Part shown: in pieces, positions 1 to 44,412 of the stretch
Numbering within the stretch: position 1 is the stretch's first letter
Layout of the letters: each line of letters opens with the position of its first letter
Assembly: GCF_030450055.1 (NCBI RefSeq)
Contig: NZ_CP118480.1
Coordinates: 620,001 to 684,000 of the forward strand
Source of the DNA: Gallaecimonas kandeliae
Lineage (GTDB): Bacteria > Pseudomonadota > Gammaproteobacteria > Enterobacterales > Gallaecimonadaceae
Reading direction: 5' to 3'
Length of the DNA: 64,000 nt
The notes under the pieces: generated by a model
Told to the model about the DNA's origin: nothing
Databases searched by the model: none
The model's input: the letters and a program-made list of their open reading frames with translations, nothing else
Program-made: the position numbers and the translations under genes

Positions 1-1675
1 GGCCGAGGTTCAGCAGCCGCACCATCTCGCTGGCGCAGGCCTCGGCCAGGGCGGCCCTGTAGCCGCCGGTCGAAACCGGCTTGTCGCTCTGCAGCTGCCA
101 GCAGGTGAGCGGCGCCTGGGGCTGGCCGTCGATGCGCAGGACCTCTTTGCGGCCGTTGGCCTCCACCTCGATAAAGGGGATGGCGTCCTTGAACAGGAAG
201 GCGCCCTCCGGCTGCTGCTCCCCTTGCAGGAAGAGGCCGTTGACGGCGGCCACCAGCTCCTTTGTGGAGCGGTAGTTCTTGCCGAGGGTGTAGTGGCGGC
301 CGGCGGTGTCCTGCTTGGCCTGCAGATAGGTGTAGATGTCGGCGCCGCGGAAGGCGTAGATGGCCTGTTTGGGGTCGCCGATCAAAAAGACCCCAGTTCT
401 GCCTGCTGCGCTCGCCGATACGGCGTTGGCCGCCGGCTCAGGTTGCTCCTGGCCCAGGCCGTAGACCTTGGCGAAGATGCCGTACTGGGTGGGGTCCGTG
501 TCCTGGAATTCGTCGATCAGCGCCACCGGGTATTCGCCGCGGATCACCTGGGCCAGTGTTGGGCCCTGGTCGCCGTCGAGGGCGGCCTTGAGGCGGCCCA
601 GCAGGTCGTCGAAGCCGAGGGTGGCGCTCTGGTGCTTCTCCTGCTCCAGGCGCTGCTGTATCCAAGTGGCGGCGTGGCGGATCAGCAGCTCCCTGTCCTG
701 GGGCAGGGCCGCCAGTTGGGCGGGCAACTGGGCCAGGGCGGCGAAGGCCGGGTGCTGGGGCGGGGCCTTGCCCTTGGCGACGGCGCCGGCCAGGCCCTCT
801 GGGGTGAAGCGGCTCCAGGCGCTGTCGGGGAGCTCCGGCGCCAGCTGCGGCTCGTCGGCCAGCCAGTCGCCGAGGCCGTTCAGGAACTTCTCCAGGGTGG
901 GCCTTTTGACATAGGTGCCGGAGAGCACCTTGGCGTCCAGGGCCTGGGTCAGCAGTTCGGCCAGCTCCGGCAGCCACTGGCGCCACTGGGCCTTGAGCGG
1001 CGCCAGGGCCGCCAGGCGCTGGGCCTGCTGCTCGGCCAGCAACTGGCCCAGGTCGCCGCTTTGGGGCTCGGCCAGCTCCAGCCAGGGCTTGATCTTGGCC
1101 TTGAGGGCCTCGGGGCCGGGCCAATGGTCCAACACCCCCAGCAGCTGCCGGGAGGGCAACGGATAGTAATGGCGGCGCCAATAGTCCTTGACGGCCTGAT
1201 CCAGCAGCGCCGAGAGATCCGTTTCCAGGCGGAGGTCGAAGAGGCTGCCGCTGGCGAAGGCGTGGGCCCTCAGCATGCGGTTGCACCAGCCGTGGATGGT
1301 GTGGATGGCGGCCTCGTCCATCCACTGGGCGGCCAGGGCCAGGCGATGGGCGCAGCCCGGCCAGTGCGGCTCGGCAAAGCCGGCCTTGAGGCTCTGCAGC
1401 AGGGCGTCGTCGGTGCCGGCGCCGGCGAAGACGGCGCCCGCCTCAGTGAGGCGGGCGCGGATGCGATCCTTGAGCTCCTGGGTGGCGGCCTCGGTGAAGG
1501 TCACCACCAGGATCTGCGGCGGTGTCAGGGGCGCCTCCTGGCCGTCGGGGGAGCCCAGCACCAGCCGCAGGTAGAGGGCGGCTATGGTGTAGGTCTTGCC
1601 GGTGCCGGCGCTGGCCTCGATGAGGCGGCTGCCGTGCAGGGGAAAAGCCAGGGGGTCGAGCTGCTGGAATTTCAC
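1..1675 (-). CDS. recB: RecBCD nuclease/helicase beta subunit, 5' part (runs off the left edge)
   Basis: This is the N-terminal part, about 558 residues, of the RecB subunit of exonuclease V, the 3'-5' helicase and nuclease that processes double-strand breaks with RecC and RecD. The translation opens with the UvrD-type Walker A region [11 protein letters not shown], then shows [23 protein letters not shown], the Walker B-like [13 protein letters not shown] and [15 protein letters not shown], in the usual RecB order. The start is taken as GTG at 1675, whose GTGA overlaps the recC stop, so translation is coupled. An alanine-rich stretch of about 17 residues lies just before IGDPKQ and looks like a local insertion. 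The C-terminal nuclease domain lies outside the window. Confidence 0.93.
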
Positions 1676-34444: not shown

Positions 34445-35395
34445 TCAGCAGGAGACCTTGATCCTGTCCCTGCCGTCGGTCTTGGCCCTATAGAGGGCGG
34501 TGTCGGCGGCGAACAAAAGGGCTTCGGCGGTGCGGAACTGGCCGCTGGCCTCGGTGGCGATGCCCTGGCTGACGCTGACTCGCACCTCAAAGGGCAGGCC
34601 TTCTCCCTGGAACTCCAGGTCGTTGATGTGGCGGCGTATCACCTCGGCCACGCTCCTGGCCATCTCGCCGTTGCAGCCGGGCAGCAGCACCGCGAACTCC
34701 TCGCCGCCGTAGCGGGCGGCCAGGCAATGGCCGCCGGGCAGGGCCGCCGCTATCTGCTGGGCCACCCTTTTCAGGCACTTGTCGCCCTGCATGTGGCCGT
34801 ACTGGTCGTTGAAGAGCTTGAAGTAGTCCACGTCTATCACCAGCAGGCTGATGGGGCGGCGCTTGCTGGTGCATTGGGCCCACTGCTCGTCCAGGGCGGC
34901 GGCGAAGGTGCGGCGGTTGGCAAGGCCGGTCAGGCAGTCGGTGGCGGCCAGTTGCTGGAGCGCCTTGATCTCGGCCTTCTGGGCGCTGAGGTCCTGGATG
35001 CCGACCACCAGGCAGGGGGTGCCGGCCGGCATGTAGGACACCGAGACGTTGGCCGGCAGCAGGTGCTCCCCCCAGTGCTTTACCAGCATCTCGGTGGGGC
35101 CCTGGACCAAGGCCCTGGGGCCGGCCGCCAGGCGCTCATTGAAGTCGGCCTGCCAGGGCGGCGTCAGCCAGTCTTGCCAGGGCCTCTCCAGCAGCGCGTC
35201 CATGTCGCTGCCAAGCAAGGCCAGGGCGGCGCTGTTGGCGAAATTGACCTGGCCGGCCAGATCCAGGCGCAGCATGGGGTCTTGCATCTGCTCCAGCATC
35301 AGCGCCAGCAGATCGTCCTCGTTGGCGGCGCTGGAGGCGGGCGCGTCGAGGACGTCAGCCGGCAGGGCGGTACCGAGGGGAGGCCGGGTTGTCAT
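34445..35395 (-). CDS. PAS-GGDEF diguanylate cyclase
   Basis: A 316-residue soluble protein with an N-terminal PAS domain (about 28-138; MLRLDLAGQVNFANSAALALLG) and a GGDEF domain (about 148-316) with TDCLTGLANRRTF, DVDYFKLFNDQYGH and the active GGEEF at 230-234. It should make c-di-GMP. No RxxD inhibition site is visible before the signature. The PAS ligand is unknown, though small molecules or redox are common inputs. It is the third c-di-GMP enzyme in the window and is not linked to the coupled pair at 24.9-28.2 kb. Confidence 0.93.
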   Translation of the reverse strand: MTTRPPLGTALPADVLDAPASSAANEDDLLALMLEQMQDPMLRLDLAGQVNFANSAALALLGSDMDALLERPWQDWLTPPWQADFNERLAAGPRALVQGPTEMLVKHWGEHLLPANVSVSYMPAGTPCLVVGIQDLSAQKAEIKALQQLAATDCLTGLANRRTFAAALDEQWAQCTSKRRPISLLVIDVDYFKLFNDQYGHMQGDKCLKRVAQQIAAALPGGHCLAARYGGEEFAVLLPGCNGEMARSVAEVIRRHINDLEFQGEGLPFEVRVSVSQGIATEASGQFRTAEALLFAADTALYRAKTDGRDRIKVSC

Positions 35396-35660
35396 TGTTA
35401 TATCCGTCAGGCAGTTCCGTTGTTGGCAATAACCTTATAAGCCGGGCCTCTTTATTGCCTTCTGCTAACCTTTCGGTTCAATCCTTTGTTTTTAAAGGGT
35501 TATTCTTCTGCCTTCCGGGGCTTCGCCGCAGCCCTTTCGACGCTTCGCAGCGCCCTGGGCGGCCCCGCCGAGGCTGGGGTGCGACAATTTGCCGCATCCC
35601 AAGGACAGGCGCGCATCCCTATACTCGCGCCAGATTTTTGCCCTGAAGGAACCCCGGCCC

Positions 35661-37703
35661 ATGCCTCTTTCCCCCAAGCCCCTGGCCCTGCTGATCGCCA
35701 CCCTCCTGTCCACCGCCGCCTTCGCAGACGACGTCGAAATCATCGAAGTCCACGGCCAGCAGCCCGGCCAGCAGAGCGGCTCGACCTTTGACCAGCTGCT
35801 GGGGCAAGGGGTAGATTTTTCCGCCGCCGGCGGCGTCTCCGCCTTGCCGGTGCTGAACGGCCTGATGGGGGACAGGGTCAAGGTGCAGCTGGACGGCGCC
35901 GACATCAGCAGCGCCTGCGCCAACCAGATGAACCCGCCGCTTTCCTATGTGTCCGGCAACCAGATCGGCAGCGCCCAGGTGCTGGCCGGGGTCTCGCCGG
36001 TGAGCCTGGGGGGCGACAACATCGCCGGTGTCATCAATGTCACCACCCTCGACCCCCATTTCGGCGGTGGCGACAGCCTCGGCTGGCGGCAGGGCTATCT
36101 GAGCGGCGGCTTCAAGAGTGTGAGCAGCACCAAGACCCTGGGCCTGGGTGCCGAGCTTGCCAGCCAGGACCTCAGCCTCAAGTACGACGGCGCCTTCGAA
36201 GACGCCGACAGCTACCATGACGGCAAAGGCGACAAGGTGCTGGACACCCTCTACCGGGCCCAGAACCATGCCCTGACCGCCGCCTACAGAGGCGAAAAGC
36301 AGCTGCTGGCCCTCAAGCTCAGCCACCAATATATCCCCTTCCAGGGCTTCCCCAACCAGTACATGGACATGACCAAGAACCGCAGCTTCGGGGCCAACGC
36401 CCTCTACCGGCGCCGCTTCGCGGCGGGGGAGCTGGAGGCGCGCCTCAACTGGCACGGGGTCAAGCACGAGATGGGCTTCTTCACAGCGGAAAAACCCGGC
36501 ACCATGCCCATGGAGACCAAAGGCATTGATCGCGGCTACCAGCTGCACTGGACCCAGCCCCTGGCCGGCGGCGGCACCCTGAAGCTGGGCCAGGAGTACT
36601 TTGATTTTCGCCTCGACGACGGCTGGCCGGCCGTGCCGGGCTCGATGATGATGGGCCCCAACGACTACCTCAACATCAACGGCGGCAAGCGCCAGCGCAT
36701 CGCCGCCTTCGCCGAGCAGGAACTGGCCCTTGCCGCCTGGCAGCTCAACTACGGTCTGCGCTTCGAACAGGTGCATACCGACACAGGGCCAGTGCAGGGT
36801 TACGGCTCCATGATGATGGCCATGGACAGCGCCGCCGCCCAAGCCTTCAACGGCCGCGACCGCAGCAAGACGGACAACCTATTGGACGCTAGCCTGCTGG
36901 CAAGCGTTCAGCTGGACGGCGAGCAGCAGCTGCAACTGGGCCTGGCCCGCAAGAACCGCGCCCCCAACCTCTACGAGCGCTATTCCTGGGGCCGCAGCCC
37001 CATGGCCAGCACCATGATCGGCTGGTTCGGCGACGGCAACGGCTATGTGGGCGACATAAACCTCAAGCCGGAAACGGCCTACACCGCCAGCCTCAAGTAC
37101 CAGTACCAGGGGGCCGACTGGCAGGCGAGCCTGAGCCCTTACTACACCCGGGTTCAGGACTTTATCGACGCCGACGTCATAGGCACCCTGGGTAGCGGCG
37201 CCGCCACCCGTCACCAGTTGCAGTTCACCAATGTCGATGCCCGCCTCTACGGCCTGGACGCCGCCGCCGCCCTGACCCTGGCCAGCAGCCAGGCCCTTGG
37301 CCAGTGGCAGCTGCCCGCCAAGGCCGGCTACCGCCACGGCGAGCGCGACGGCGGCGGCGCCCTCTACCAGTTGGCCCCTATCCAGGGCAGCCTGGCCCTG
37401 AGCCAGCAGTTTGGGAGTTGGACCAACAAGCTCGAGTGGGCCTGGTCCGGCCGCAAGCATAGGGTGGACGCCCGGCGCCTGGAAAACGAGACGGCCGGCT
37501 ACGGCCTGCTGAACCTCTCCAGCCAGTGGCAGGCCAAGGCCCTGACCCTGAGCCTCGCCGTCACCAACCTGCTGGACCGGGACTACCAACTGCCGCTCGG
37601 CGGCGTCAACATCGCCCAGTACAAGCAGGACAAGAGCCAGGGCTTTAGCCAGCTTAAAGGCCAAGGCCGCTCCGTGGACCTGGGGCTGAGGTATGCGTTT
37701 TAA
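35661..37703 (+). CDS. TonB-dependent copper receptor, OprC/NosA-like
   Basis: A 680-residue outer-membrane receptor: signal peptide to FADD, plug domain about 30-130 with GGDNIAGVINV, then a 22-strand barrel ending in GLRYAF with terminal Phe. The plug carries SACANQMNPPLSY, giving Cys86-x3-Met90, and the barrel has KHEM, giving His269-x-Met271. These reproduce the CxxxM/HxM copper site of Pseudomonas OprC. A further Met-rich stretch (MMAMD near residue 400) could help. It should import copper under TonB energy. ATG 35661 has an AAGGAA site; the frame is open further upstream without one. Confidence 0.85.
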   Translation: MPLSPKPLALLIATLLSTAAFADDVEIIEVHGQQPGQQSGSTFDQLLGQGVDFSAAGGVSALPVLNGLMGDRVKVQLDGADISSACANQMNPPLSYVSGNQIGSAQVLAGVSPVSLGGDNIAGVINVTTLDPHFGGGDSLGWRQGYLSGGFKSVSSTKTLGLGAELASQDLSLKYDGAFEDADSYHDGKGDKVLDTLYRAQNHALTAAYRGEKQLLALKLSHQYIPFQGFPNQYMDMTKNRSFGANALYRRRFAAGELEARLNWHGVKHEMGFFTAEKPGTMPMETKGIDRGYQLHWTQPLAGGGTLKLGQEYFDFRLDDGWPAVPGSMMMGPNDYLNINGGKRQRIAAFAEQELALAAWQLNYGLRFEQVHTDTGPVQGYGSMMMAMDSAAAQAFNGRDRSKTDNLLDASLLASVQLDGEQQLQLGLARKNRAPNLYERYSWGRSPMASTMIGWFGDGNGYVGDINLKPETAYTASLKYQYQGADWQASLSPYYTRVQDFIDADVIGTLGSGAATRHQLQFTNVDARLYGLDAAAALTLASSQALGQWQLPAKAGYRHGERDGGGALYQLAPIQGSLALSQQFGSWTNKLEWAWSGRKHRVDARRLENETAGYGLLNLSSQWQAKALTLSLAVTNLLDRDYQLPLGGVNIAQYKQDKSQGFSQLKGQGRSVDLGLRYAF

Positions 37704-37760: not shown

Positions 37761-38207
37761 TTAACCAGGAAGAGTTGCCTCGTCGTCATTGATGACCTGC
37801 GGATCGGCACTCAATAGCAACAGGTTCTTGGCCTTGCTGCCGCCAGGGGCGTTTTTAAAGCTGAAGCCGAACTGGAAGCCGACGCTGTATTGGTCAGAAG
37901 TGGCCTTGCTGACGTCATAGGGGTTGGTCAGCACCAGGGTCTGGCCGCCGTTAATGATCTGGGCCTCGGTGATCACGTTGTTGAAGGGGTTGCTGAAGGC
38001 GACGCCGTTAAAGGCAAAGCCGTAGTCCCGCTGGGTGGCGTTGTCTACGATGGTATATTCCAGGTAGCAAGGGCCAGTTGCGATCACGCATTCGCAGCTT
38101 TGGCCTTCGGCCTCGTAAATAAAATTAAAGCCGTTCTGCTCGTCACCGCTGATAATGACGTTGATCTGCTTGGTCGGGTAATTGGGGTTGGTTTCTGATA
38201 TTGACAT
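37761..38207 (-). CDS. Small beta-rich protein of unknown function, partner of the nSTAND regulator
   Basis: A 148-residue acidic protein with no signal peptide or membrane segment. It is rich in Asn, Thr, Phe and Tyr with strand-like segments (INVIISGDEQNGFNFIY, CYLEYTIVD, GFQFGFSF) and ends SADPQVINDDEATLPG. The DPQVIND stretch recalls the DP-EP family of small beta-sandwich proteins, but I hold that loosely. It begins 2 bases downstream of the large winged-helix/nSTAND gene, so the two are one transcription unit. Cysteines C38, C40 and C47 are close together. Function is unknown; a ligand or sensor subunit is an inference. Confidence 0.68.
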   Translation of the reverse strand: MSISETNPNYPTKQINVIISGDEQNGFNFIYEAEGQSCECVIATGPCYLEYTIVDNATQRDYGFAFNGVAFSNPFNNVITEAQIINGGQTLVLTNPYDVSKATSDQYSVGFQFGFSFKNAPGGSKAKNLLLLSADPQVINDDEATLPG

Positions 38208-38209
38208 TG

Positions 38210-41200
38210 CTATTTCCTTGTCATGGTGTAAAAGTTGGCTGGTATGTTCTCTTGCTTAAGTAAGAGTAAGAGCGCTTGTTCATTTGATAACTTTCCAACG
38301 CAGTCCAATGCTCTTGCGTAGGGAGTGATAATGCTTGGTGATTTATTATTTGCCACTAAAGGATATAGAAGAGACAAAGCCTTTTTGCAGTCGTGACTAG
38401 ACAGCAGCTTTTCGCCTAAATTGAGGTGGATGGAACTCCTTGTTAAGTAGCTTTCTGCTAATCCGAGCGATACTGCTACTTTTTTGTTTTCTGCTTTATA
38501 ACGTTTTTCATAAAGCTCAATAGCCATACTTATGTTATTATCAGCAAGCTCTGGATGATTATTGAGACTATAGAGCGCGATCGTCTTATAAAAAATTGAA
38601 AGCAATTCTGTTGAGCGTTGTTCGTTTGAATCTTTTGCGAAATCTAAAATTGATCTATGTAATGATTGTGGTGTGTCGTAATTGCTGCTACATGAACTGA
38701 TAGTGCAAAAATTAAATAAGTAAAGGCGAGCCAATAGCTCTTGTGTTTTCCATGTTTTATTTTTTTTGTCTTGCGACAGAGCTGCATGTGTTGCTTTTAA
38801 CGCTTCTTTTATCACACTTATTGCTTCAGCATTGTTTCCTGAACCAGAAAGCAGCAATGCTTGTTGTCTTAATGTTGCTTCCAATCGATGCAGCATGTAA
38901 CCATTTGTCAAAAAATGTTCAGTGCTAAATTCCTGCCGATTTTTTTCATAGATGATCAGGGCTTCTTTGACCCTACCTTCAGCGCTATTTGCGCTGGCCA
39001 GCCAGGAGCGGGTATCGACCACATCGGCCATCCGCTGGACATTGGTGGGGTCCTGCTTCAGGGCCTGCTCCTTAAGGGCCAGGGAACGTTCGAAGTGTTG
39101 GCGCGCCTCGCCGAAGTTCTGCTCCTTCATCTGCACCGAGCCCAGGCTGTTAAGGGCGTAGGACAGCTCCATCAGGGCGTTGCCGTCCTGGGGGGCCTGG
39201 TCGAACATGGCCTGGCTGTAGGTCAGGTACTGGCTGAACCAGCCGGCGGCCCCCGGCCAGTCGGCCTGATCGTAGCGGAGCTGGCCCAGCCAGTAGGCAT
39301 TGGCCCCCAGGGACTTCAGCAGTTCCAGGTTATGGGGCTGGCTTTTTTGTAGCGGTAGCAGTTCTTTCTGGGCGGCCAGCAGGGCGCTCTTGGCTTCCTC
39401 CGTCTTGCCCCGGGAATAGGCCACTTCGGCCATGGCCTCCAGGGTCTGGCCGTGCTGGAAGCGGCCGTCGAAGCCGAGGTTGTCGTCGTCACTACCGGTA
39501 CTGGTGAAGTATTCCAGGGCCTTGCTGGAGATGCCGTCCAGCAGATCCATGCGGCCTATGCCCCTCAGTTTGTCGGCGAAATCCCCCACCATGAAACCCA
39601 GCAGCTTTTCCGCCGCCAGCCGCCGCTCCGTGGCCTGCTTCTCGGCCTGGACGCTGCGCAGGCTCATCAGGCTGGCCACCAGGGCCAGGCAGCCCAGCAG
39701 CAGCACTGTGCCCGTCTTGAGGGCGCGGCGGCCCCTGGCCTTCTTGGCAGAAGCTGCGATCAGCGCCTTTTCCGACTCCTCGAGGCTGAACAGGGGGTTG
39801 GTTGCCAGGGCCTGGGCCTGGGCCAGGGGTTTGCCCTCGGGCAGCAGGTAGGCGGGGGCCTTGGCTTCCTGCTGCCAGCGCCTGGCCTGGTGCCCCAGGC
39901 GGGCCTGCTGGGCCAGGCTGTCCTTGTGGTCGGCTATCCATTGGCTGGCCCTGGGCCAGCGGCGCAGCAGGGCCTCGTGGGCTATGCCGAAGCTGGGCTC
40001 CCCCTGTTGCAGATGGGAGACGAAGAGCCTTTTCTCCACCATGGCCTGTACCAGGGCCCTTTCCTCGGCGCTGCCGAGCTGGGAGAGGCGGGCGCTGCGG
40101 CTGGTGATGGACTGCTCGTCCTCCCGCAGGGTGACCAACAAGGAGAGCACCCTGGGCAGGGCGTCGCGCTGGCCCTGGCTGAGCTGGCCAAGGGCTTCTT
40201 CGGCGGCCCGGCCTATGGCCCCTTCGATGCCGCCAAGGCCGCGGTAGACGGCGACCTTCAGCAGGCCCGCTTCGCTCCGGGCCAGGTAGAGCTGCTGCAA
40301 CATGTATTGCAGCATGGGCAGCACGTCGGGGTTGGCGGCGGCGTCGAAGCAGAGCAGCTCGTCCAGGGGCTGGGCGCTGTCTGGGTCCTGCTCGAACGTC
40401 AGGCCAGCGGCCTGGGCCGGCAGCCGGATCATCTGCAGCAGCTCGCTGCGCCCAGGGGGCTCCAGGTCGAAATGGGCGCCACTCTGCTTGCCGGCCATCA
40501 GGCTGGGGTGGCTCACCAACTGGGGGTAGAAGTCGTTGCGGCAGGCCGCCAGCACCAGTACGGCGTTGCTGCGGGCAAAGGCGTCCAGCAAGGCGATAAA
40601 GCCCTGGCGCTCGGCCTCGCCAAAGAGCGGCGAGGACAGCAGCACTTCCAGGCGGTCGATAAAGAGGCAGTAGCGGGGCAGGGCATAAGGGCCCTGGGGC
40701 AGGGCGGCCTTGAGCCCGGCCAGCAGGGCGTCGGGCTCGGCCGCCAGCTTGGCGGCGAGGCTCTCGGCGCTCTCGTTCTCGAAGAGCGGCTGGCCACCCA
40801 GCTCCCAATCCAGCAAGGCGCTGGCCAGGGATGGCAGCAGCAGGCCCTGGCTGACGTCGGCCAAGTCCAGGCTGGTGTCGCTGACCAGGCCCAGGCCGTT
40901 GTAGCCCTGGGGCGTGGTGAGGTTGGGGATGATGCCGGCCTGGATAAGGGAGGACTTGCCGCAGCCGCTGGGGCCCAGCACCAGGCAGAAGTCGCGGCCG
41001 AATTTCACCTGGTGGTGGATGCGCTCCAGCAGGGTATGGATCTGGTTGCCGCGGCCATAGAAGACGCCGGCATGCTTGGCGTCGTAGGGCTGCAGGCCGG
41101 GGAAGGGGGAGCCGCCCTGCCAGTTCGCCACCTCGGCAGCCTTCTCGTCGCCCAGGGGGAAGCGCACGTCGGCCAGGGTACGGTAACCGCGCTTGCGGAT

Positions 41201-41473
41201 GGTCTCGATATAGCGGGGGGCCGTGGCCTTGTCGCCCAGGGCGGCGCGCAACTGGGTGATGGTCTTGTGCAGGGGGTTGTCGCCGGTCTCTATGTTCGGC
41301 CAGCACTTGGCCAGCAGCTCCTCGCTGCCCACCACCTGGCCGGGGTGGCGGCAGAGGTAGAGCAGCACGTCCATGGCCTTGGGCTCCAGCTGCTTGACGC
41401 GCTGGCCTTGGCGCAGGCTGTTGGCCTTGGGGGTAACCTGCCAGTCCCCGAAGAAAAAGTGGTTGTTGCCCAT
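38210..41473 (-). CDS. Winged-helix / nSTAND1 NTPase / TM / TPR membrane regulator
   Basis: A 1087-residue protein. Residues 1-105 form a CadC/OmpR-type winged helix (LEPKAMDVLLYLCRHPGQVV, TIRKRGYRTL). Residues about 122-520 are an nSTAND1-type ATPase starting PFPGLQPYDAKHAGVFYGR, with Walker A GPSGCGKSS at 167-175, Walker B LFIDRLE at 270-276 and ACRNDF as sensor. A single TM helix lies at about 587-606, after which TPR-like helices run to the end, probably periplasmic. Codons for residues up to about 827 are GC-rich; from there to the stop the DNA is plainly AT-rich, suggesting a recombined 3' third. An IS element sits 58 bases upstream and may have displaced its promoter. Confidence 0.85.
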   Translation of the reverse strand: MGNNHFFFGDWQVTPKANSLRQGQRVKQLEPKAMDVLLYLCRHPGQVVGSEELLAKCWPNIETGDNPLHKTITQLRAALGDKATAPRYIETIRKRGYRTLADVRFPLGDEKAAEVANWQGGSPFPGLQPYDAKHAGVFYGRGNQIHTLLERIHHQVKFGRDFCLVLGPSGCGKSSLIQAGIIPNLTTPQGYNGLGLVSDTSLDLADVSQGLLLPSLASALLDWELGGQPLFENESAESLAAKLAAEPDALLAGLKAALPQGPYALPRYCLFIDRLEVLLSSPLFGEAERQGFIALLDAFARSNAVLVLAACRNDFYPQLVSHPSLMAGKQSGAHFDLEPPGRSELLQMIRLPAQAAGLTFEQDPDSAQPLDELLCFDAAANPDVLPMLQYMLQQLYLARSEAGLLKVAVYRGLGGIEGAIGRAAEEALGQLSQGQRDALPRVLSLLVTLREDEQSITSRSARLSQLGSAEERALVQAMVEKRLFVSHLQQGEPSFGIAHEALLRRWPRASQWIADHKDSLAQQARLGHQARRWQQEAKAPAYLLPEGKPLAQAQALATNPLFSLEESEKALIAASAKKARGRRALKTGTVLLLGCLALVASLMSLRSVQAEKQATERRLAAEKLLGFMVGDFADKLRGIGRMDLLDGISSKALEYFTSTGSDDDNLGFDGRFQHGQTLEAMAEVAYSRGKTEEAKSALLAAQKELLPLQKSQPHNLELLKSLGANAYWLGQLRYDQADWPGAAGWFSQYLTYSQAMFDQAPQDGNALMELSYALNSLGSVQMKEQNFGEARQHFERSLALKEQALKQDPTNVQRMADVVDTRSWLASANSAEGRVKEALIIYEKNRQEFSTEHFLTNGYMLHRLEATLRQQALLLSGSGNNAEAISVIKEALKATHAALSQDKKNKTWKTQELLARLYLFNFCTISSCSSNYDTPQSLHRSILDFAKDSNEQRSTELLSIFYKTIALYSLNNHPELADNNISMAIELYEKRYKAENKKVAVSLGLAESYLTRSSIHLNLGEKLLSSHDCKKALSLLYPLVANNKSPSIITPYARALDCVGKLSNEQALLLLLKQENIPANFYTMTRK

Positions 41474-41503: not shown

Positions 41504-41531
41504 GGTTTCCAGCCTACCTTAGCCTTGTTAC
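41504..41531. repeat. 28-bp direct repeat, left flank of the IS
   Basis: The 28 bases starting GGTTTCCAGCCTACC are identical to 42580-42607 and abut the IS exactly on both sides. Confidence 0.9.
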
Positions 41532-42579
41532 GGCGTTGTTGATCAAATCAGAGCCTGGAAAGCCTGCTCCTAAAGGGCTTGCTGCCCTTAACTGACCTGG
41601 CGAACAGGCATGCCGAGGCCCAGCATTTTGTTCATCACCTTCACCCCAGCCAAAGCCTCTGCCACTTGGCCGTTGTAGTCGCGCAGACTCAGCTTCGGGC
41701 TGATGAGCTGCTTGTATCGCGACATAGCCGTTTCCGCTTTTGAGCGTTGGTGATAGCCGCTTTCCCTTTTCCACTCGGCCAGTTGCCCGGCTTTCAGCGC
41801 CGCCACTGCCTCGTTCCTTGGGTGACCTTGCTCCCAGTACCCCGCTGTCTTGCGAGGCGGGATGCTGGCTTTGGCGCCTTTTCTTTGCAGTAGCCGGTGG
41901 CAGGCTCTGCTGTCGTAAGCCCCGTCGGCGCTGACTTGGTCGATACGGCGGCGCAGAGGATTGAGCAGGCCGGGCAGTACCTCGCTATCACCGACGTTTT
42001 CCAGGCTGACTTCGGCGGCGATAGCCTCATGGGTCTGCGCATCGACGGCCAGGTGTAGCTTGCGCCAGACACGGCGCTTCTCCTTGCCGTACTTGCGTTG
42101 CTTCCACTCGCCTTCGCCATAGACCTTGAGCCCGGTGGCGTCGATAACCAGGTGGGCAACTGGGCCCTTGCTGGGCAGGCGGTAGCGGATGTTGACCGTC
42201 TTGGCGCGCTTGCTGATGCAGCTGTAACTGGGCGAGGTCAACGGCAGTTCCATCAACTGGAATAGCGAGTTGATAAAGCCTTCCAAGGCACGCAGCGGCA
42301 GGTCGAACAGGCCCTTGAGCATCAGCGCTGTCTCGATGGCGGTGTCGCTGTATTCGAAACCACGACCCCGACCGCCGTGATGCTGTTGGCAATGCCAATG
42401 GCGGGTAGCCGCTTCATCCATCCAGAAGGTTAATGAGCCTCGGTTAACCAAGGCGCGGTTGTAGTCTGCCCAATTGGTGATAGTGCGTTTAGCCTGACCC
42501 ATCTGCTGTTCCCCATCGATACGTCGGGGATCGGATCACAGTCAGGCGGATTGGTTCACCGGATTTGGGAAACAACGCC
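41532..42579. mobile_element. IS5-family, IS903-group insertion sequence (1048 bp)
   Basis: The ends are imperfect 18-bp inverted repeats: GGCGTTGTTGATCAAATC on the left and GGCGTTGTTTCCCAAATC read inward from the right. Both resemble the IS903 terminus. The length and single transposase ORF fit the group, which normally duplicates 9 bp of target. Here the flanking duplication is 28 bp. The element looks intact. Confidence 0.92.
41588..42502 (-). CDS. IS5-family (IS903-group) transposase
   Basis: A 304-residue DDE transposase covering nearly the whole IS. It reads like IS903: TNWADYNRALVNRGSLTFW at the N-terminus, then VIDATGLKVYGEGEWK with the first Asp, SADGAYDSRACH with the second, and the YHQRSKAETAMSRYK line with the Glu and the Y-(2)-R-(3)-E-(6)-K signature. 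No frameshift or stop interrupts it, so the element may be active. It is transcribed away from the secreted-protein gene and toward the nSTAND gene, so read-through could express the latter. Confidence 0.95.
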   Translation of the reverse strand: MGQAKRTITNWADYNRALVNRGSLTFWMDEAATRHWHCQQHHGGRGRGFEYSDTAIETALMLKGLFDLPLRALEGFINSLFQLMELPLTSPSYSCISKRAKTVNIRYRLPSKGPVAHLVIDATGLKVYGEGEWKQRKYGKEKRRVWRKLHLAVDAQTHEAIAAEVSLENVGDSEVLPGLLNPLRRRIDQVSADGAYDSRACHRLLQRKGAKASIPPRKTAGYWEQGHPRNEAVAALKAGQLAEWKRESGYHQRSKAETAMSRYKQLISPKLSLRDYNGQVAEALAGVKVMNKMLGLGMPVRQVS

Positions 42580-42607
42580 GGTTTCCAGCCTACCTTAGCC
42601 TTGTTAC
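42580..42607. repeat. 28-bp direct repeat, right flank of the IS
   Basis: Perfect copy of 41504-41531, directly adjoining the right inverted repeat of the IS. Confidence 0.9.
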
Positions 42608-43343: not shown

Positions 43344-44393
43344 TCAGCCCGAACTGGCTTCCCAGGCCGGTTCAACCTCGGCCAGCTCCCGCCACCAGGC
43401 GGAGCCGCGGTGGGGGCTGGCCAGCTCCAGCCGCTCCGACATGGCCGGGGTACTCACCGGCACCCCCTTGGCCAATCCCAGGGCCTGGATCTGCTCGAAA
43501 GGGTCGTACCAGGCGTGCATGGCCAGGTCGAAAGTGCCGTTGTGGATGGGCAGCAGCCAGTGGCCCTGGAGATCCAAGTGGGCCTGCAGGCTCTCCCTGG
43601 GCTGCATATGCACGCCGGGCCAGTTGGCGTCGTAGGCGCCGGTCTCCATCAGGGTCAGGTCGAAGGGGCCGTACTGCTCCCCTATGGCCTTGAAGCCGTC
43701 GAAATAGCCCGAGTCGCCGCTGAAGAAGAGCCGTTGCCGGCCGCTGTCGATGACCCAGGAACACCAGAGCCGGCTGTTGCCGTCACCAAGGCCCCGGCCC
43801 GAGAAATGCTGGCTGGGGGTGGCCACCAGGCTGACGTCCCCCACCTGGGTCTGCTGCCACCAGTCCAACTGCCGGATCTTCCCCGCCGGCAGCCCCCATG
43901 CCACCAGCAGGTCACCGACTCCGGTCGGGGTCAGGAAGTGCTTGGTCTTGGCTTCCAGGGCCAGCACCGCGGCCTTGTCCAGGTGATCGTAATGATCGTG
44001 GGAGAGGATCACCGCCTCGATGGGCGGCAGCTCGTTGATGCCGATGGGCACCTGGTGGAAGCGCTTGGGCCCCAGCCATTGCACCGGCGAGGCCCGTTCG
44101 GAAAAGACCGGATCGGTGAGCCAGAACAGACCGTGCAATTTCAGCAGCACCGTGGAGTGGCCCAGGCGCCAGAGGCTGTGATCCGGCGCCGCCAGCAGCT
44201 GCGCCTGGCTCAGCTTTTCCACCTCGAAACCCCTGGCCGGCTGGGTATGGCGGGGTTTGTTGAAGAAGAAGTCCCAGAAGATCTTGAGGGTCTTGCCGAG
44301 GCCGGCCTTGGGCATGGGGGCGGCGTTGCGGTACTGCTTGCCCTGGCGGCGGTAGCGGGGCAGGTCATCTGGCAAGGGGGCATTGTGGGACAT
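43344..44393 (-). CDS. MBL-fold metallohydrolase, NAPE-PLD/UlaG-like
   Basis: A 349-residue metallo-beta-lactamase-fold enzyme. SLWRLGHSTVLLKLHGLFWLTDPVF opens the domain, VILSHDHYDHLD carries the HxHxDH dinuclear site, FFSGDSGYFDGF gives the bridging Asp, and LLPIHNGTFDLAMH the last His. The family includes N-acyl-phosphatidylethanolamine phospholipase D; the bacterial substrate is not known. ATG 44393 has GGAGGAG upstream. It is divergent from a TetR regulator with a palindrome in the shared promoter region, so induction by release of TetR is likely. Confidence 0.88.
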   Translation of the reverse strand: MSHNAPLPDDLPRYRRQGKQYRNAAPMPKAGLGKTLKIFWDFFFNKPRHTQPARGFEVEKLSQAQLLAAPDHSLWRLGHSTVLLKLHGLFWLTDPVFSERASPVQWLGPKRFHQVPIGINELPPIEAVILSHDHYDHLDKAAVLALEAKTKHFLTPTGVGDLLVAWGLPAGKIRQLDWWQQTQVGDVSLVATPSQHFSGRGLGDGNSRLWCSWVIDSGRQRLFFSGDSGYFDGFKAIGEQYGPFDLTLMETGAYDANWPGVHMQPRESLQAHLDLQGHWLLPIHNGTFDLAMHAWYDPFEQIQALGLAKGVPVSTPAMSERLELASPHRGSAWWRELAEVEPAWEASSG

Positions 44394-44412
44394 GGACGGC
44401 TCCTCCATAAAT

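Follow-up and report, generated by a model that had tools for sequence, protein, structure and literature searches.

What does a membrane-bound transcription factor that carries its own ATPase respond to, and which genes belong with it? This question is raised by a locus in Gallaecimonas kandeliae, lying in a stretch of 64,000 nucleotides (contig NZ_CP118480.1, positions 620,001 to 684,000, assembly GCF_030450055.1; hereafter the window, to which all coordinates refer). Here, a regulator of 1087 amino acids (P0001; 38210..41473, minus strand) is followed, 2 nucleotides past its stop codon, by a gene for a protein of 148 amino acids (P0002; 37761..38207, minus strand). An earlier note, made from the DNA letters alone, had read these as a two-gene system controlling transcription from the cell envelope, with the small protein as a candidate ligand, substrate or effector. 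Our analysis suggests that the regulator, the small protein, which belongs to the DP-EP family, and an enzyme of cyclic di-GMP (c-di-GMP) metabolism encoded nearby make up an undescribed three-gene signalling system.

Architecture of the regulator

The regulator joins a winged helix, an nSTAND1 ATPase, one transmembrane (TM) helix and a TPR region, as judged from an AlphaFold model and from Pfam matches to Trans_reg_C and nSTAND1 that lie far over the cut-off. All parts are encoded on the minus strand. The DNA-binding domain, of the CadC/ToxR type, spans residues 27-98 (41180..41395; PF00486, E 2.3e-16), has CadC (5ju7, E 1.2e-13) as its best sequence match in the PDB and is accompanied by no receiver domain match in Pfam. 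The nSTAND1 NTPase follows at residues 123-539 (39857..41107; PF20703, E 7.1e-89), and its Walker A motif (GPSGCGKSS, residues 167-175) and Walker B motif ((C)LFIDRLE, residues ~269-276) are intact, with key residues that are invariant or close to it among 99 homologues. By its sequence the regulator is thus a member of the nSTAND1 family, and it is the sole such protein over the cut-off in the 3.84-Mb genome; upon binding a ligand, it may oligomerise in an ATP-driven manner. The TM helix occupies residues 587-606 (39656..39715), and beyond it lies the putative TPR sensor region, residues ~641-1080 (38234..39553), for which Pfam gives TPR matches from about residue 772 onwards. In the AlphaFold model (mean pLDDT, the predicted local distance difference test, 84), residues ~668-1074 are entirely helical repeats of mostly high pLDDT, while the overall predicted TM-score (pTM) of 0.47 means that the placement of the domains relative to one another should not be used. 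Among the best structural matches of the regulator is the STAND-TPR structure 6MFV. The positions of both open reading frames (ORFs), the order of the domains and the intact Walker motifs, all of which the earlier note had given, were borne out by these searches.

The small protein belongs to the DP-EP family

P0002 scores 32.2 bits against the DP-EP profile PF08985 (cut-off 25), and its model (pLDDT 84) aligns to the solved structures of SO1698 of Shewanella oneidensis (PDB 3N55, 3NJF-3NJN), with a Z score of 16.2 and a root-mean-square deviation of 2.0 over 117 residues for 3nji. As about 100 loci moreover have homologues at the corresponding position, P0002 is not a chance ORF, and its start, 2 nucleotides past the stop codon of the regulator, shows AAGGA-type spacing. 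The profile score, the SO1698-type beta-sandwich and a C-terminal S-x-D-P...N motif together place P0002 in the family. This motif, S133-A-D135-P136-Q-V-I-N140 (37788..37811), corresponds to S114-P-D116-P117...N121 of SO1698, so that the two proteins have in common both the fold and the motif S-x-D-P-Q-x-x-N. The folds that rank next after the SO1698 entries, at lower similarity, are MakD of Vibrio cholerae (Z 10.8) and the inclusion-body protein PixA (Z 10.3), and a wider superfamily is thus possible.

The SO1698 entries are informative as to what the motif does. According to entry titles and chain sequences, the chain ends at D116 (119 residues) in the wild type and in K98A, Y26F, P115A and Q118A, whereas it runs through D116-P117 (128 residues) in D37A, S114A, D116A and P117A. 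As the mutant chains divide into cut and uncut forms, these entries indicate that SO1698 cleaves itself at the Asp-Pro bond and requires D37, S114, D116 and P117 for doing so. Across 108 family sequences (SO1698 numbering), S114 is kept in 106, D116 in 107, P117 in 108 and N121 in 105, whereas the residue at D37 is Asp in only 28 and that at K98 is Lys in 43. P0002 retains S133, D135, P136 and N140 but has C40 for D37, G110 for K98 and N95 for D89, the last at a position where most DP-EP proteins have Asp. Alignment thus points to a scissile motif that is conserved family-wide and to a catalytic acid of SO1698 that is not. Because C40 sits at the D37 position, we do not class P0002 as a self-cleaving peptidase. 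A K98-D116 cross-link was also considered as a common function of the family and was rejected, K98 being present in only 43 of the 108 sequences and absent in P0002.

As SO1698 is named an aspartic peptidase in the PDB and its mutant chains come cut and uncut, DP-EP might be active as an Asp-Pro endopeptidase on the regulator, whose cytoplasmic half would thereby be freed from the membrane. Asp-Pro pairs are indeed frequent in the regulator at residues 363 (67 of 99 homologues) and 902 (79 of 99), although neither pair is invariant, and neither is found in the cytoplasmic part that adjoins the membrane. The reaction in the solved structures is, however, a self-cleavage, and it is the scissile motif that the family keeps rather than D37, so that we consider cleavage of the regulator by DP-EP very improbable indeed.

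Coupling of the regulator and DP-EP genes

A scan of genome contigs with the single sequence of P0002 gave no matches; as P0002 is too divergent for this, the regulator alignment (A1) was used against GTDB contigs instead. It yielded 262 relatives. Loci were retrieved for the best 80 of these, and in all 79 that are not cut by a contig end (one was) DP-EP lies immediately downstream. The reverse view agrees: DP-EP occurs in 27 of 295 genomes of the order, and each of the 26 such loci outside the window has a homologue of the regulator immediately upstream on the same strand. It should be noted that the two locus sets overlap partly and that both use GTDB species. In the same sample of the order, each of the 26 full-length regulators with a high score is accompanied by DP-EP, and a divergent regulator (genome G183; pair L141) also has one, which Pfam had missed. 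The gap between the two genes is short, with a median of 21 nucleotides and a 75th percentile of 31 over 98 loci, and proteins closely related to SO1698 (88% identical) are encoded immediately after a regulator of this type. The coupling is therefore obligate as far as seen. The earlier note had named a lack of conservation of the small gene beside the regulator as grounds for giving up its reading; what we found is coupling in every intact locus.

Among 398 genomes sampled across the phylum, DP-EP is found solely within the order (7 genomes), and the only locus labelled otherwise is a contig of a Porticoccaceae metagenome-assembled genome (MAG; L128). Regulators in three genomes (G072, G146 and G171) were considered as relatives free of DP-EP; though alike in the winged helix and the ATPase, they differ in the C-terminal half, lack DP-EP and are better set apart as a separate subfamily.

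Proteins of the nSTAND type are common in bacterial conflict systems. The locus might accordingly serve defence or a programmed response, with the STAND protein sensing an invader and DP-EP, c-di-GMP or both executing the response. A patchy distribution, in 54 of 97 genomes of one genus, and the fast evolution of both the TPR region and DP-EP would suit such a role. Nonetheless, matches in PADLOC cover a short P-loop only and none extends over the length of a defence model, no homologue of the DP-EP queries used was found on plasmids or phages, the neighbours differ from locus to locus with no defence-island pattern, and the winged helix and the linked cyclase described below point to gene regulation. 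We thus regard a defence role as very unlikely.

A diguanylate cyclase as the third gene

The third gene encodes a diguanylate cyclase of 316 amino acids with a PF24820 sensor and a GGDEF domain (34445..35395, minus strand). The latter matches PF00990 (E 9e-45) and carries the signature RYGGEEF, in agreement with the GG(D/E)EF pattern. A same-strand GGDEF gene follows DP-EP in 74 of the 77 loci with enough downstream sequence, and the PF24820-GGDEF architecture is seen in all eight cyclases sampled as well as in the window's own. When the DP-EP-adjacent cyclase of Pseudoalteromonas was compared with the Gallaecimonas genome, the window cyclase scored 209 bits and the next GGDEF protein 122, by which the two cyclases are judged orthologous. 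Of the few thousand genes of this genome, about 57 encode GGDEF proteins, and the linkage is not background. The number itself indicates an unusually rich c-di-GMP network for a genome of 3.84 Mb. Of the 26 strongest PF24820 matches in the sample of the order, 25 come from genomes with DP-EP, nearly all of them adjoining it. The arrangement is not rigid: the cyclase is inverted in 3 genomes, moved by 23 kb in one and often separated by inserted genes. That it is kept through such inversions and insertions speaks for function, and the cyclase belongs to the module with the regulator and DP-EP. The two-gene reading of the earlier note thus stood as to the coupling, while it had missed both the DP-EP/SO1698 family, with its Asp-Pro self-cleavage, and the cyclase as a module gene.

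Covariation of DP-EP with the TPR region

For 66 loci, distances between pairs were compared by partial correlation, with 200 permutations. With the ATPase and cyclase distances removed, DP-EP correlates with the two halves of the TPR region at partial r of 0.55 and 0.49, values that none of the 200 permutations reached, as opposed to 0.12 with the winged helix and 0.13 with the TM linker. The cyclase, which is about equally close to DP-EP, shows no such covariation (0.02 once ATPase distances are removed). In windows of 60 residues, regulator residues 641-1061 give 0.26-0.50 with DP-EP, while almost all of residues 1-640 give -0.15 to 0.17, the fast-evolving segments 201-301 and 521-621 included; the cyclase control is mostly below 0.2. 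Both the TPR region and DP-EP evolve fast, but the covariation steps up at about residue 641 and does not follow the speed of evolution. Within DP-EP, the central and later segments give 0.43-0.52 (one window 0.31), against 0.24-0.27 for the N-terminus. These data favour contact between DP-EP and the TPR region. As the divergence of DP-EP tracks the TPR region, and not the DNA-binding domain, most of the ATPase or the cyclase, the TPR sensor probably has DP-EP as its partner; the view of the small protein as a partner, taken in the earlier note, is thereby indirectly supported.

The covariation should also be weighed against a reading in which DP-EP is the output, i.e. a small self-processing or self-assembling protein under the control of the regulator, with the TPRs sensing something else and the covariation reflecting linked evolution of sensor specificity and effector. 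Indeed, the DP-EP gene comes downstream of the regulator in their shared transcript unit, its product has no signal peptide, and the nearest folds beyond the SO1698 entries, MakD and PixA, would fit such a protein. A mere target gene, however, need not track the sensor, and the covariation is with the sensor half rather than with the DNA-binding half; moreover, exported paralogues of DP-EP stand beside the regulator (see below). We therefore hold DP-EP as output to be rather unlikely, and continue with DP-EP as the probable partner of the sensor.

Probable topology of the regulator and exported DP-EP copies

The helix at residues 587-606 is the strongest hydrophobic segment of the regulator (KD19 hydrophobicity 2.1), and in six homologues its N-terminal flank carries a charge of +4 to +6 and its C-terminal flank -1 to +1, in line with the positive-inside rule. 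Another hydrophobic segment, at residue 292 of the ATPase (KD 1.69), was judged to be part of the fold. Cysteine content agrees with this topology: the 99 regulators have a mean of 8.0 Cys before the TM helix and of 2.05 in the ~480 residues after it, and the pair C1029/C1058 is present in 97 of them. In the model, as read from the helix limits, these two residues face each other on antiparallel helices (1022-1040 and 1046-1058). Given one TM helix, its positive-inside flanks and few Cys other than one facing pair, the TPR region is probably periplasmic.

DP-EP proteins that would share this compartment exist in some genomes. At nine loci (L042, L045, L061, L069, L076, L079, L089, L090 and L104), a second DP-EP copy stands in tandem, always following a copy without a signal peptide. 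A signal-peptide-like start is seen in seven of these nine second copies as annotated, and for the other two the annotated start appears to lie too far downstream. Every one of the nine carries a Cys pair with a spacing of exactly 29 residues. Because the second copies have signal peptides, the family, by this sequence evidence, reaches the periplasm in some genomes. Several second copies carry an extra N-terminal domain of ~100 residues with no Pfam match, and two or three DP-EP copies occur in several genomes of one genus. As for the envelope model of the earlier note, its membrane span and its probably periplasmic TPRs are supported, while it did not address the absence of a signal peptide from the usual form of the small protein.

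A working model and the evidence against it

We propose that the regulator would be anchored in the inner membrane, its winged helix and STAND ATPase lying on the cytoplasmic side and its TPR superhelix on the periplasmic side. DP-EP would be its dedicated protein partner, physically binding to and acting on the TPR sensor. A change in this binding, perhaps through processing at the conserved Asp-Pro bond, would release the ATPase to bind ATP and oligomerise, thereby gathering several winged helices on one promoter. Regulation would thus run from DP-EP through the regulator to its putative target genes, and the linked cyclase may be the conserved output, leading to a c-di-GMP-controlled behaviour such as attachment or motility. 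Taken as a whole, a three-gene envelope signalling module of this kind is a tentative reading, to which we give somewhat less than an even chance.

Several observations weigh against the model and should be considered. First, standard DP-EP proteins, P0002 included, have no signal peptide, mostly 0-3 Cys and no disulfide pattern; as the signal peptide is absent, it is not obvious how they meet a periplasmic TPR region. Second, D37, which self-cleavage of SO1698 requires, is replaced by C40 in P0002. Third, an opposite-strand gene for a TonB-dependent receptor separates the window cyclase from DP-EP, so that the three genes do not form one transcript and the cyclase must have its own promoter; in Colwellia (L120:14439-15299) and in the Porticoccaceae MAG (L128:8069-8944), moreover, an AraC-type gene takes the place of the cyclase. 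Fourth, window 401-461 of the ATPase also covaries with DP-EP (0.33), and one should bear in mind that the covariation is based on a distance method, and that joint transfer of neighbouring DNA could likewise produce it. Finally, the best-covered genus has the module in no more than 54 of its 97 genomes.

The absence of a signal peptide could also be taken at face value. DP-EP would then be an encoded protein signal that neighbours or lysing cells set free. After a cut at Asp-Pro, the periplasmic TPRs would read it through its body or its C-terminal tail, which often has 8-9 residues (P-[QE]-[VI]-x-N-...), leading to c-di-GMP synthesis. If true, a lineage-matched ligand-receptor pair would feed an ATP-driven switch across the membrane, yet we consider this version quite unlikely.

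Neighbouring genes and the promoter region

The TonB-dependent receptor between DP-EP and the cyclase (35589..37703, plus strand; Pfam) is found in this position in only one other locus and is probably not a module member. Other genes occupy this interval elsewhere. Between DP-EP and the cyclase, Rheinheimera-like and Pseudoalteromonas loci encode an exported subtilisin that bears a P-domain, along with a small ORF_2_N protein (L087:13822-16072, L133:13888-16108 and L109:13895-16050, the L109 subtilisin being split into several ORFs). In L058, L059, L060, L073, L088 and L092, transposase-like genes, of the REP-associated type by eye, have been inserted downstream of DP-EP, and L060 retains a piece of 109 amino acids that resembles the start of an exported DP-EP paralogue.

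Upstream of the regulator, an IS5-like element (41531-42591; DDE transposase at 41588-42502, imperfect inverted repeats near 41531-41561 and 42562-42591) reaches within ~60 bp of the regulator start. A relative of the same genus (L056) has a homologue of 43344-44408 directly upstream of the regulator, where the IS5-like element sits here, and the native promoter may thus have been displaced in the window. Scanning the locus for promoters and terminators gave sites no more numerous than in shuffled sequences, and a search for a DNA motif shared upstream of the regulator, over 76 non-redundant regions, yielded only AT-rich words and lineage-restricted strings.

Relation to known systems and implications

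Each part of the module is of a known kind, and it is the combination that may be new. STAND regulators with repeat sensors, such as MalT, are soluble. The regulator resembles these MalT-type proteins and 6MFV in joining a P-loop STAND ATPase to a TPR sensor but differs in two respects: its DNA-binding domain is N-terminal, and the membrane probably lies between its ATPase and its sensor. With the CadC/ToxR one-component regulators it shares a cytoplasmic N-terminal Trans_reg_C domain, one TM helix and a C-terminal periplasmic sensor (predicted here), while having in addition a full STAND ATPase before the membrane, a long TPR superhelix as sensor and a dedicated protein partner. The pair C1029/C1058 is comparable to the periplasmic disulfide of CadC, which affects CadC activity (PMC3096576). 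In RcbAB of Vibrio vulnificus, a TPR protein is encoded beside a diguanylate cyclase and controls it (PMC12282931); the adjoining TPR protein and cyclase genes are alike, whereas RcbB has a TPR domain of its own and the description includes no STAND ATPase, winged helix or DP-EP. The open literature, with most subscription journals outside its scope, gave no description of a STAND ATPase in a CadC-like regulator together with DP-EP and a cyclase, a negative that carries little weight, and the accessible texts tie neither a regulator nor a cyclase to SO1698.

For DP-EP itself, no biological role was found in the literature searched, despite the solved structures and the Asp-Pro self-cleavage mutants. 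Its strict coupling to one regulator and its matching divergence give the family a first direct, testable role. If the model is true, Shewanella, Rheinheimera, Pseudoalteromonas and their relatives, among which are laboratory species, would have a means by which STAND ATPases, which are usually soluble, sense the periplasm and govern transcription and c-di-GMP.

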